Origin: Bacillota bacterium
GTDB taxonomy: Bacteria; Bacillota; Sulfobacillia; Symbiobacteriales; ZC4RG38
Assembly: GCA_021890795.1 (NCBI GenBank)
Contig: JAKKUO010000006.1
Span: forward strand, 1-64,000
Direction: 5' to 3'
Length of the DNA: 64,000 bases
Part shown: positions 18,344 to 29,340 of the stretch, piece after piece
How positions within the stretch are numbered: position 1 is the stretch's first letter
Layout of the letters: each line of letters begins with the position of its first letter
The notes under the pieces: model-generated
Told to the model about the DNA's origin: nothing
The model's input: the letters and a program-made list of their open reading frames with translations, nothing else
Databases searched by the model: none
Position numbers and translations under genes: made by a program

Positions 18344-19204
18344 CTAGAGGTCGTCGTCGTCCCACCCCGCGGACCCGTCCTCCGGCAGGGGCGGCGGTGC
18401 GCCGGCGTCGGGGGGCGCAGCAAGGGCCGGCACCTGCGGTCCCGGCTGCGGATCCGCCCCGGCGAGCCAGTCCCCGGGGAGCAGGTCCGGGGGAACCAGC
18501 TCCTGTCCCGGCGGAATCAGCAGGCCGTTCTTCTCCGCTTCCACCCGGATCTTATCCCGGGCCTTGACCAGGCACCGCTGCACCTCCCGGCTCAGCCGCG
18601 CATCCGGGGGCAGTCCGGCCCAGACGCCCCGGGTCCCCGGCATCAGGGGGCCGTAGGCGGCCCGGGCCTTGCGGGTACCGCCCACCCCCGGGGCCCGGCC
18701 CAACCGGACCAGCATCTGGCGCCGGGCCCGGGCCGCCTTATCCGACCGGCCCATAGCCCGGCGGCAGGTGTTCAGAAGCTGCAAGAGGGAGCGGGGCTCG
18801 GCCAACTCCGGGTGCCGCAGCACCGCATCCCGGACCCCCAGCACCAGCCGGGCCGCGCGCACCGCAGCCCGGAAGGTCGGTTCCTCCGCCGGCTTGATCT
18901 TCAGCCGCCCGGTGCGCTCCAGGGTTTCGGCCAGGCCGGCGGTGCTGAGGGGAACCCGCCGGACCACCTTGCGGCGCCCCCGGCACTGGACCTTGAGGGT
19001 AGCATGGGCCGGCCGCCCCGCGGCATCCCGCTCCAGGGTACACTCGAGAATGCGCAGGTCGTACCAGTCCACCCCGCCCAGTTTCTCCAGGATGTCGTTG
19101 GCCGCTTCCAGTAACTCTTCTGCCGCCGCTTCCTGAAACTCAGAGGCCGCCAGGAGACTCTCGTCTCCCGGCAGGGGGAGATCGACGGGGCCCGGTAGTT
19201 CCAT
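18344..19204 (-). CDS. Conserved hypothetical protein
   Basis: This 286-residue protein starts at ATG 19204 behind GGGAGGT with 7-8 nt spacing, and its own terminator follows. It has no signal peptide or membrane helix. The N-terminal third (EFQEAAAEELLEAANDILEKLGGVDWYDLRILECTLERD) looks alpha/beta with amphipathic helices. The middle is basic (RRAMGRSDKAARARRQMLVRLGRAP), and the C-terminus is Pro/Gly-rich ending in GSAGWDDDDL. I do not recognise a family. The coding frame is clean, has a good ribosome site and the expected codon bias, so it is a real gene. A basic middle and acidic tail could suggest nucleic-acid or protein binding, but this is speculation. Confidence 0.7.
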   Translation of the reverse strand: MELPGPVDLPLPGDESLLAASEFQEAAAEELLEAANDILEKLGGVDWYDLRILECTLERDAAGRPAHATLKVQCRGRRKVVRRVPLSTAGLAETLERTGRLKIKPAEEPTFRAAVRAARLVLGVRDAVLRHPELAEPRSLLQLLNTCRRAMGRSDKAARARRQMLVRLGRAPGVGGTRKARAAYGPLMPGTRGVWAGLPPDARLSREVQRCLVKARDKIRVEAEKNGLLIPPGQELVPPDLLPGDWLAGADPQPGPQVPALAAPPDAGAPPPLPEDGSAGWDDDDL

Positions 19205-19269
19205 GGTGCGGACCTCCCTTGCGAGAGGGCTCCCTCCCATGGTATGCCCCCGCGGGGTGAGTGGGCCGG

Positions 19270-19303
19270 AAAAAACCAGGCGGCCGCACCGAGGTGCGGC
19301 CGC
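19270..19303 (-). terminator. Rho-independent terminator of the 19320-19730 gene
   Basis: Reading leftward, GCGGCCGCACC / GGTGCGGCCGC (11-bp stem, arms 19293-19303 and 19280-19290) is followed by CTGG and then six T residues (19275-19270). Confidence 0.88.
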
Positions 19304-19319
19304 GGTCCGTGGCAGGGCG

Positions 19320-19730
19320 TCATGGCTCACCCGGGGCCAAAGGGCTGCCGGAACTCCCCCCTGACCCTCCGGGGTCGAGGCGGAGCCACTCGGCCAGCTC
19401 CCGGTACCGGGCGGCGAATGCCGGCGTGCCAGCGCTCCGGGCCAGGGCTTCCATCCGCGCCTCAAACTCCCGGAACCGGGGGCAGGAAGCGAGGGCGCGG
19501 CCGTACCGGCTGGCAAAGCGCTCGATGGCCCCAGCCTGGTAGCCCCGTTCCGCCCAGAAGCGCTTCAGGTGGGCTTCCACGCTGTCCACCTGGTCCGGAA
19601 GGGCGGCGGCAAAGGCCCGCAGGTCTGGATCCGGGTGGTCCCCGAGGCAGACCTTCACCAGCGGCGCCACGGCCCGCCGGTGTAGCTCCCGCAACTGGCG
19701 CAGGTCCGTCTCCCGATCCCCCAGGTTCAT
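19320..19730 (-). CDS. Small hypothetical helical protein
   Basis: This 136-residue protein is taken to start at ATG 19730 (MNLGDRETDLRQL). The longer in-frame start at 19811 would add a low-complexity tail. Most of the sequence is predicted helical (RQLRELHRRAVAPLVKVCLG; DQVDSVEAHLKRFWAERGYQ; ERFASRYGRALASCPRFREFEARMEAL), with a Gly/Ser/Pro tail. No membrane segment or signal peptide. It is followed by a strong terminator and preceded by the CheX-EAL gene 120 bases upstream, so it may be co-transcribed with it. No family recognised. Confidence 0.6.
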   Translation of the reverse strand: MNLGDRETDLRQLRELHRRAVAPLVKVCLGDHPDPDLRAFAAALPDQVDSVEAHLKRFWAERGYQAGAIERFASRYGRALASCPRFREFEARMEALARSAGTPAFAARYRELAEWLRLDPGGSGGSSGSPLAPGEP

Positions 19731-19850
19731 CTTCCCACCACCACCTGCCAGTCTGCCCGGTTGGGCCCGGTCCCAATCCCGGTACCCGTCCCGGGGCCTC
19801 CAACCCCTCATCCCCGGGGTTACCTCCGGGTGAGCCGGGGTCTGCTGCCC

Positions 19851-21095
19851 TCACCCCAGTCTGGCCAGGGCCTCCAGCACCTCCACGCCCACCGTCAGCG
19901 GAGGCCGGAGGGAGGGTCGGCCCACGAGGTAGCCCTGGACAAAGTCGACCCCTGCCCGGCGCGCGGCCCGGAGGTCCTCCACCGTCTCGATCCCCTCGGC
20001 CACCACCACGGCCCCCACCCGGTGGGCGGCGGCCACCAGCCCCTCGACCAGGGCGAGGCGCCACCCGCCCCGGTCCATCCCCGCGGTCAGGGCCCGGTCG
20101 AGTTTGACCATGTCCGGCCGAACCGCCAGCAGGGCCTGGAGTCCCGAATCCCCGGCGCCGAGGTCGTCCAGGGCCACCCGGCCCCCTGCGGCCCGGTAGC
20201 GCTCCAGGGCGCTCAGGAAGTCCAGGTCCCGGTTCAGAACCGTCCGTTCCGTTACCTCCAACACAACCCGCCGGACCCAGGAGCCATCCTCCGCCAAGAG
20301 CCCCGTCAGGGGACAGCGGTCGTCCAGGAGGGGAACCCGGGCGTCGATGTTGAGGGAGAGTTCCATCCCCTGCTCCAGCACCCACCGGCCAGACCGGAGG
20401 GCCGTCTTCCGGGCGGCCCGCTCCAGGGCCGGCAGGATGCCGGCGGCTTCGGCGGCCCGAAAGAGCTCGTCCGGCTGCTCCAACGGCCCCTCTGGCCCCC
20501 GGAGCAGCGCCTCGTAACCGACGATGCGGCCGGTGCGCAGGTCCATCACCGGCTGCAGCACGGCCCGGAGCCGGGAATGGTTGAGGATCTCCGCCACCTC
20601 CACCAGCCGCTGCCCCTGAAGGCTGGCCACGGAGGTGGAGGCATCCCGGAGGTGGAAGCGAAGGGTGATGGAGTGGCTTCCCGAACGGAGGCTGACCACC
20701 CGAAACAGGGCCGGTTGGGCCAGGAACTCCTCCCCCGGGCTGAGGGGCTGCGGCACCGTGACCGTCAGGGAATAGCCGGCGCTAGCCAGCCGGGAAGCGC
20801 CTCCCGAGGCGATGAGATTCGCCAGCTCCGCCACCACGCTCCGGCTCAGGCCGGGAACCGTCTCCGCCGAGGGACCGAGGGCTCTGCGGGCAAAGCTGGC
20901 CGCAGTGGCCTGGTCCACCGTCAGGAGCAGAAGCCCCCCGACGGAGCCCACCAGGGCTACGAGGGCACTCACCCCCTGGGGGGCGGTCCGGGTGTGGTCG
21001 AGCCCCGCCGGCTCCGCCCGGGCCGGCTTGCCGCCCCACTGTTCCATCGCCTTCATCGCAGCCGCGACGAAGGCCTCGTAAACTTCCGTTTCCAT
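19851..21095 (-). CDS. CheX-like phosphatase domain fused to an EAL c-di-GMP phosphodiesterase
   Basis: The protein has 414 residues. Residues 1-160 resemble the CheX/CheC fold: GVSALVALVGSVGGLLLLTV, then the phosphatase-like helix SVVAELANLIAS, which has the S-x3-E-x2-N pattern known from CheC/CheX, with a proline 22 residues later (VTVPQP). Residues about 175-414 form a complete EAL domain: YEALLRG, LSLNIDAR, VVLEVTER, ALDDLGAGDSG, DMVKLDRAL, VVAEGIE and VQGYLVG, so it should hydrolyse c-di-GMP. The combination suggests a link between response-regulator phosphorylation (chemotaxis) and c-di-GMP turnover. No chemotaxis genes are nearby. Start ATG 21095 has a weak ribosome site (CGGGGGAA). 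Confidence 0.82.
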   Translation of the reverse strand: METEVYEAFVAAAMKAMEQWGGKPARAEPAGLDHTRTAPQGVSALVALVGSVGGLLLLTVDQATAASFARRALGPSAETVPGLSRSVVAELANLIASGGASRLASAGYSLTVTVPQPLSPGEEFLAQPALFRVVSLRSGSHSITLRFHLRDASTSVASLQGQRLVEVAEILNHSRLRAVLQPVMDLRTGRIVGYEALLRGPEGPLEQPDELFRAAEAAGILPALERAARKTALRSGRWVLEQGMELSLNIDARVPLLDDRCPLTGLLAEDGSWVRRVVLEVTERTVLNRDLDFLSALERYRAAGGRVALDDLGAGDSGLQALLAVRPDMVKLDRALTAGMDRGGWRLALVEGLVAAAHRVGAVVVAEGIETVEDLRAARRAGVDFVQGYLVGRPSLRPPLTVGVEVLEALARLG

Positions 21096-28638: not shown

Positions 28639-29340
28639 ATGTCCGCGCGCCAGGTGCTGGTCATCGACGACGAGGAGAACATCCGGGAACTCTGCCGGCT
28701 CTACCTGGAGCAGGAAGGCTATCAGGTGCTGGAGGCGGCCGACGGGCTGGAGGGGCTCGAGAAGGCCCGGCAGCACCGGCCTTCCCTGGTGATCCTCGAC
28801 CTGATGCTGCCGGGCCGTTCGGGGCTGGAGGTGGTCCGGGACCTGGTCGCCCTGGACATCCCGGTGATCATGCTCACCGCCCGGACCGACGAGGTCGATC
28901 GGATCCTGGGGCTGGAGCTGGGGGCGGACGATTACGTCACCAAGCCCTTCAGCCCCCGGGAGCTGGTCGCCCGGGTGAAGGCGGTGCTGCGCCGGACCGA
29001 GCGCGCCCAGGCGCCCCCCCGGCCGGAGCGGCTCGAGTTCCCCGATTTCACCATCGACCTGGCGGCCCGGGTGCTGGAGGTCCGGGGCCAGGTGGTGGAC
29101 TGCCCGCCCAAGGAGTTTGACCTCCTCGCCACCCTGGCCCAGAACCCCCACCGGGTCTTCTCCCGGGAGCAACTGCTGGAGAAGGTCTGGGACTACCGCT
29201 ACTACGGCGATCTGCGCACCGTGGACGTCCACATCCAAAGGGTGCGGAAGAAGATCGAGCCCAATCCCGAGGAGCCTCGGTACATCAAGACGGTCTGGGG
29301 CGTGGGGTACCGGTTTGAGCCCGGCACGCCCCGCAGTTGA
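28639..29340 (+). CDS. OmpR/PhoB-family response regulator
   Basis: This 233-residue protein starts at ATG 28639 behind GGAGGTGGG. The receiver domain has the acidic pocket IDDEEN, phosphoacceptor Asp54 (LVILDLMLPG), Thr in MLTART and Lys in VTKPFSP. The C-terminal winged helix (FDLLATLAQNPHRVFSREQLLEKVWDY; TVDVHIQRVRKKIE; TVWGVGYRF) binds DNA. It is followed at once by its sensor kinase gene. The signal and regulon are not visible from the sequence. Confidence 0.95.
   Translation: MSARQVLVIDDEENIRELCRLYLEQEGYQVLEAADGLEGLEKARQHRPSLVILDLMLPGRSGLEVVRDLVALDIPVIMLTARTDEVDRILGLELGADDYVTKPFSPRELVARVKAVLRRTERAQAPPRPERLEFPDFTIDLAARVLEVRGQVVDCPPKEFDLLATLAQNPHRVFSREQLLEKVWDYRYYGDLRTVDVHIQRVRKKIEPNPEEPRYIKTVWGVGYRFEPGTPRS

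Follow-up and report, generated by a model that had tools for sequence, protein, structure and literature searches.

A CheX-EAL fusion gene in the Symbiobacteriales and its possible place between receiver phosphate and c-di-GMP

Known links between phosphorylated receivers and c-di-GMP

Where phosphorelays feed into c-di-GMP, the link is commonly a response regulator with a GGDEF or EAL domain. In the sensor-EAL phosphodiesterases BlrP1, RocR, and Bd1971, an N-terminal regulatory domain of the BLUF, REC, or cyclic-nucleotide-binding type, respectively, precedes one complete EAL domain. A different kind of link is outlined in the passages of a review that deal with PdcA, PdcB, and PdcC of Burkholderia thailandensis (PMC9899790). 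There, the CheC/CheX phosphatase PdcB removes phosphate from PdcC, an inhibitory receiver protein that is thereby relieved, and the diguanylate cyclase PdcA becomes more active. Passages of other articles describe the occurrence of CheX in one protein with MshEN, a c-di-GMP receptor domain (PMC5013675), and the interaction of CheY3 with diguanylate cyclases in Shewanella (PMC7666153). No CheX-EAL fusion is described in the titles, abstracts, and passages searched in the open-licence PubMed Central literature.

The gene considered here lies at 19851..21095 (-) of a 64,000-nucleotide stretch of DNA (the window) and encodes 414 amino acids from an ATG start, as given by the open reading frame list and by orthologues at two further loci, L062 and L031. 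Like BlrP1, RocR, and Bd1971, all of which are among its PDB sequence or fold matches, its product places a regulatory domain at the N terminus and a single complete EAL domain after it. Unlike them, it has no sensor or receiver of its own, and its input domain, CheX, would read a receiver in trans; the EAL domain is here attached to a phosphate-removing type of domain, not to a response regulator. The Pfam CheX match and the motif S-x3-E-x2-N-x21-P are common to the fusion and to the CheC/CheX/FliY CheY-P phosphatases (PDB 1xko, 1squ, 3hzh), and a solved chain of the CheX family gives a profile match over residues 1-126. In contrast to stand-alone CheX, the fusion is joined to EAL, encoded outside the che operon, and divergent, sitting on a long stem.

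As presented in the review passages cited above, the Pdc system ties a CheC/CheX-type phosphatase to c-di-GMP turnover via a phosphorylated receiver, as proposed for the fusion, but it does so with three separate proteins and a diguanylate cyclase, whereas the fusion is one protein with a phosphodiesterase-type domain. No receiver or cyclase gene adjoins the fusion in a Pdc-like arrangement. In the MshEN proteins, by the passages that mention them, CheX is likewise joined to a c-di-GMP-related domain, but that domain is a receptor and not an enzyme, whereas the partner domain here is EAL, an enzyme type. Because of these analogues (Pdc, MshEN-CheX, and the CheY3-cyclase interaction of Shewanella), the mechanism proposed below appears plausible.

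Domain architecture of the fusion protein

The initial annotation, made from the sequence alone, had read the N-terminal domain as CheX-like and placed a full EAL domain after it, and profile searches bear out both assignments. In a Pfam search with the whole frame, CheX (PF13690) matches residues 42-128 (20712-20972, -) at E 7e-9 and 36.1 bits, where the gathering cut-off is 27; the N-terminal 162 residues alone give 38.8 bits (9.8e-10), and a genome-scale Pfam search gives 39.6 bits. CheC (PF04509) stays under its Pfam cut-off on the fusion, with 13.9 bits vs 22. The NCBIfam equivalog for Thermotogales CheX, a model of another lineage under which the fusion is not filed, reaches 26.4 of 280 bits over residues 1-116, far under its cut-off. 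Searched with phmmer against PDB sequences (limit E 10), the N-terminal 162 residues return nine chains at E 1.1e-4 to 0.31, every one of them CheX, CheC, or a chemotaxis protein by name. A profile built from the three orthologues matches ten PDB chains (limit E 1), of which eight are CheX-family chains at 7.7e-9 to 5.3e-5, the best being 3iic over residues 1-126 (7.7e-9); the remaining two are CheC 3qta (0.04) and an unrelated hydrolase (0.77). From the Pfam, genome-scale, and PDB sequence matches, the CheX-like domain is assigned to residues 1-148 (20652..21095, -).

The EAL domain (PF00563) occupies residues 171-394 (19914..20585, -) and covers profile positions 8-236 of 236 at E 8e-48, with 163.3 bits against a cut-off of 31.3; the assignment draws also on PDB relatives and Foldseek. 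Between the two domains lies a variable linker, residues 149-170 (20586..20651, -), which was delimited by comparing the window and L062 proteins and from an AlphaFold2 model. The model (22 rows) sets the linker within one helix, residues 152-172, its confidence being low as far as roughly residue 160. Its pLDDT is mostly at least 90 in the EAL half and mostly below 50 in the CheX half, which was covered by one other row of the alignment; prediction of the CheX half alone, from a single sequence, gave a mean pLDDT of 42. All 50 rows shown by Foldseek for the model are EAL proteins. The CheX half could not be modelled usefully by AlphaFold2, and its fold is therefore assigned from the profile matches. 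A viral-contig scan for further CheX rows yielded none, and the CheX half found no counterpart on plasmids by tblastn at E 0.01.

Orthologues and conservation

The full-length orthologue, L062:5892-7112, encodes 406 amino acids and is found in a closed single-contig genome (G002) of 3,599,694 bases. This genome is presumed to be that of Caldinitratiruptor microaerophilus JCM16183, of which a closed assembly is described in PMC9933637; NCBI taxonomy files Caldinitratiruptor under Symbiobacteriaceae. The L062 and window proteins have the same domain order and are 48% identical overall (396 alignment columns, 309 bits), the identical residues being distributed as 58/148 in CheX, 4/22 in the linker, and 128/227 in EAL. 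The other orthologue, L031:5880-6452, comes from MAG ZC4RG38 and is cut off by a contig end; its frame also appears to shift near residue 160, and the sequence was used uncorrected. Its CheX half is identical to that of the window at 132 of 150 residues. For these two CheX halves, dN/dS is 0.064/0.325 by NG86 and 0.060/0.552 by YN00, which shows that the CheX half is under purifying selection. The fusion is thus conserved in three genomes of one family, near Symbiobacterium.

The assembly of the window genome comprises 103 contigs, and its genus relative L031 has both the contig-end cut and the apparent frame change, features that could indicate an erroneous join of two separate genes during sequencing or assembly. 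This explanation is largely refuted because L062, in a genome closed as one contig, spans both domains in the same order at full length. The whole window frame, moreover, has a gene-like codon-position composition (0.79/0.50/0.88), and we consider an artefact extremely improbable. Chance overlap of two long GC-rich frames, another candidate, is ruled out by L062 and by the codon-position composition. At the level of sequence, the frame is confirmed as a real fusion of CheX and EAL domains, with familiar parts in a new architecture.

The CheX active site and the origin of the fusion

The CheX half carries the active-site motif S86-x3-E90-x2-N93-x21-P115 (20751..20840, -), in agreement with what we take to be the spacing rule for the family, an E-x2-N pair with an upstream Ser or Asp and a downstream Pro. 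The S-x3-E-x2-N helix and trailing proline noticed at first inspection are therefore present. By alignment, all four residues are kept in the three known orthologues (window, L062, and L031), including the E/N pair, whose absence from relatives had been set beforehand as a refuting outcome. Nine consecutive residues, S86 to L94, are identical in all three and constitute the best-kept part of the CheX half. An alignment of six divergent CheX proteins that includes two fusions leaves no column unchanged except G50, G54, E90, N93, and P115, and in PDB searches the E and N of the fusion align with the E and N of solved CheX-family chains. As set out in passages of PMC3035606, the acidic residue of CheX forms a salt bridge with the receiver lysine, and the Asn positions the attacking water. 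Across 55 CheX domains from the fetched loci, Ser is kept in 54, Glu in 55, Asn in 54, and Pro in 55, counts that are not an independent test of the motif, the set having been gathered with a profile that already held it. The sole exception at the active-site Asn is a CheX-like domain at L079 (G008), in which His replaces it.

In a tree of the 55 domains, with bootstrap not settled and a root for drawing only, the three fusions group as one clade (support 100/99), whose stem measures 3.04 changes per column, against a median end branch of 0.22. The clade lies inside a larger group of 47 rows that includes the two stand-alone CheX proteins of the host; a separate group of 8 rows is taken as CheC-like. 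This single long-stemmed clade fits one origin of the fusion before the split of the two genera, after which the CheX half would have diverged strongly with its motif kept. Pfam CheX scores are 36-40 bits for the fusion vs 65.3 and 55.3 for the two other CheX proteins of the host, and 33.0 for the host CheC.

Given so long a stem, the phosphatase function may be lost or changed. The stem, the modest Pfam CheX score, and the poorly conserved linker all favor a reading in which the CheX half does no more than hold the EAL domain as a dimer or localise it, phosphatase activity and receiver binding being lost or irrelevant and the protein an ordinary phosphodiesterase; that CheX proteins form dimers speaks for it as well. 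A mere dimerisation module would, however, have no need for E90, N93, and P115, and the part of the CheX half that is best kept is precisely its catalytic motif. We regard this reading as unlikely. The invariance of the motif in all three orthologues, though so few residues of the CheX half are identical between window and L062, is instead counted in favor of a receiver-docking phosphodiesterase. Most likely, the fusion is a phosphodiesterase that binds a phosphorylated receiver and probably also removes its phosphate.

The EAL domain and the direction of signalling

Nine metal- or substrate-binding positions of the EAL domain, which we assign on the assumption that RocR-type enzymes are the appropriate guide, are all present in the fusion (E195, N249, E280, E283, D310, D311, K331, E367, and Q387). 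They are likewise all kept in L062, the signature of which reads EGL and not EAL, and in 20 of 20 other EAL rows. Nineteen of these rows were drawn by short query patterns, one of which, EGIETVED, spans E367, making the match at that position partly selected; the twentieth is the other EAL protein of the window. For the EAL half, phmmer against PDB finds 46 sequences at E 0.001, the best of which, BlrP1 (2.2e-21), is an active enzyme. Judged by these residues, the EAL active site is complete.

The only other EAL match in the genome, 10499..11248 (+), consists of an EAL domain alone and is identical to the fusion EAL at 96 of 231 residues. Its loop is altered, reading DD-V-G-N-R where DD-x-G-x-G is expected, and the protein may therefore be a paralogue with altered activity. 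In the presumed C. microaerophilus genome, G002, an EAL-type gene at L129:14786-17052 (-) is apparently split over two frames.

With both motifs intact, either end of the fusion could be the output, and the direction might be the reverse of the one proposed here: EAL would be mainly a c-di-GMP sensor and CheX the output, with c-di-GMP binding raising or lowering CheY dephosphorylation. FimX and a LapD-type binding protein, whose EAL domains are degenerate and bind c-di-GMP without turnover, are among the PDB relatives of the fusion EAL. The reported co-occurrence of the receptor domain MshEN with CheX (PMC5013675), and Borrelia phosphodiesterase and PlzA mutants whose swimming is altered in a CheX-like or CheY3-like manner (PMC4013479), point the same way. 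The fusion, however, keeps all nine active-site positions, in contrast to FimX and LapD, and for bulk dephosphorylation the host can draw on CheC and on two CheX genes apart from the fusion. On balance, the reversed direction is improbable.

Distribution of the CheX-EAL pairing

Pfam CheX matches are found in 46 of 61 genomes, comprising the host's own and 60 relatives. All CheX frames of at least 340 amino acids in these 61 genomes were fetched, and EAL occurs in the same frame only in the window and at L062; CheX frames cut by a contig end in G001 and G052 were left out of this judgement. Over 154 genomes of the class, the only sequences to score above 62 bits with a three-row CheX profile were the three from which it was built, at 244-286 bits. 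At the level of the phylum, Bacillota (398 genomes), Pfam CheX is present in 312, and the matches listed contain one frame longer than 340 amino acids, L151, without EAL. A full-length profile run over 398 genomes of the phylum, with at most four candidates per genome scored, gave one full-length match among those listed, the window's own; the other matches listed begin at profile positions of at least 140.

Two further phyla were searched. In Pseudomonadota, the phylum of G538 (a Pseudoxanthomonas), 104 of 398 genomes have CheX, with no frame of at least 340 amino acids among the matches listed. In Chloroflexota, the phylum of G536 (a Thermomicrobiaceae MAG), 400 genomes gave 57 CheX matches in 35 genomes, and the only CheX frame longer than 340 amino acids is a tandem CheX protein without EAL. 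No EAL is present in the same frame as the long CheX frames of L122, L128, L139, L140, L151, and L152, and the Pfam CheX model matches in 4 of 14 control genomes. The CheX-EAL pairing is real and so far lineage-restricted; fusions may yet occur elsewhere in Bacillota or in Pseudomonadota.

Other arrangements of CheX were seen in the course of these searches. L152:1369-2631 (-), from the Chloroflexota genome G1131, encodes two CheX domains in tandem. L151:2-2785 (+), from G074, encodes a protein that resembles a sensor kinase and ends in a CheX domain, the kinase part being named by eye; this reading would place a kinase and a receiver phosphatase in one chain. At L122, from another family of the class (G528), a frame with EAL and a GGDEF-like domain, the latter named by eye, adjoins a stand-alone CheX gene and is convergent with it.

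Signalling setting of the host

The host che operon is located on another contig (C47), where Pfam identifies CheA, CheC, a single-domain receiver (CheY), CheB with a receiver, and CheX, and where CheD and CheR are read from sequence within the operon. A further CheX lies near 8.4 kb of C47, and the fusion, outside the che operon, brings the CheX matches of the host genome to four. Parts for c-di-GMP signalling amount to five GGDEF matches (one weak), two EAL matches, both in the window, and one PilZ match; no GGDEF match is on the fusion's contig. By these matches, the host has the needed players (CheA, CheY, CheB, GGDEF, EAL, and PilZ). The nearest receiver match to the fusion, 28654-28980, is about 7.6 kb off. 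The host has 24 receiver matches, and of nine loci inspected, five have frames of 127-178 amino acids that were read by eye as single-domain receivers; several host receivers could thus be candidates for the partner of the fusion.

Gene order around the fusion is unconserved when the window is compared with L062 (about 6-7 kb on each side) and L031 (5.9 kb upstream) at a protein E of 1e-8: apart from the fusion and its mirror frames, only EAL paralogues match. The neighbourhood was considered as a pointer to the partner and rejected, gene order not being kept in the stretches compared. Immediately upstream of the gene, the segment 21096..21161 (-), which includes an AT-rich stretch, is kept with L031 in the upstream alignment, with about 58 of 66 bases identical by eye. 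Because similarity ends upstream of these approximately 66 bases, the fusion gene seems to carry its own leader. A scan of the fusion locus found no sigma-70-type promoter and no terminator, and the downstream frames 18344-19516 (-) and 19320-19811 (-) have no Pfam match at E 0.01. In G002, two modules, at L129:1614-3614 (-) and L130:2351-4203 (-), have CheY-like, CheX, and FliG-like genes near each other, CheX being identified by profile searches and the CheY-like and FliG-like genes read by eye from translations.

Proposed mechanism and implications

Our preferred reading, in which we place slightly better than even confidence, is that the fusion is a c-di-GMP phosphodiesterase whose CheX domain docks a phosphorylated receiver, with receiver state setting c-di-GMP breakdown and phosphatase activity kept. 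The CheX domain would dock on phosphorylated CheY or another single-domain response regulator, and E90 and N93 would enter the receiver active site, leading to hydrolysis of the aspartyl phosphate. The EAL domain would convert c-di-GMP to pGpG. Docking would alter the EAL dimer via the linker helix, such that the phosphorylation state of the receiver would set the rate of c-di-GMP breakdown, and the same docking event would also lower receiver phosphate. Both catalytic activities are predicted from knowledge of the two families; the coupling, its sign, and the partner receiver are conjectural. The interpretation in the initial annotation is thus supported in part: the domain identities and order, the E/N pair, and the EAL active site bear it out, but CheY as the specific substrate, a tie between the two activities, and a role as a motility switch are at this stage proposals.

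Domains above their cut-offs, both motifs intact, the occurrence of the fusion in three genomes, and purifying selection support this reading. Against it stand the long stem of the fusion CheX clade, the modest CheX score, the lack of a linked receiver gene, the unconserved gene order, and the want of a confident model of the CheX half. The poor conservation of the linker additionally argues against finely tuned rigid coupling.

A stronger form of the proposal, which we advance tentatively and hold to be somewhat doubtful, is that one polypeptide reads the phosphate of a chemotaxis-type receiver via CheX and by the same act switches c-di-GMP breakdown, such that a phosphatase, in place of the response regulator, carries the output enzyme and joins phosphorelay to second-messenger signalling. 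If the coupling is demonstrated, a phosphatase would itself take the role of signal receiver, and the protein of C. microaerophilus, with its two domains and its origin in a cultured thermophile, would allow the link between CheY phosphate and c-di-GMP to be assayed directly in vitro.
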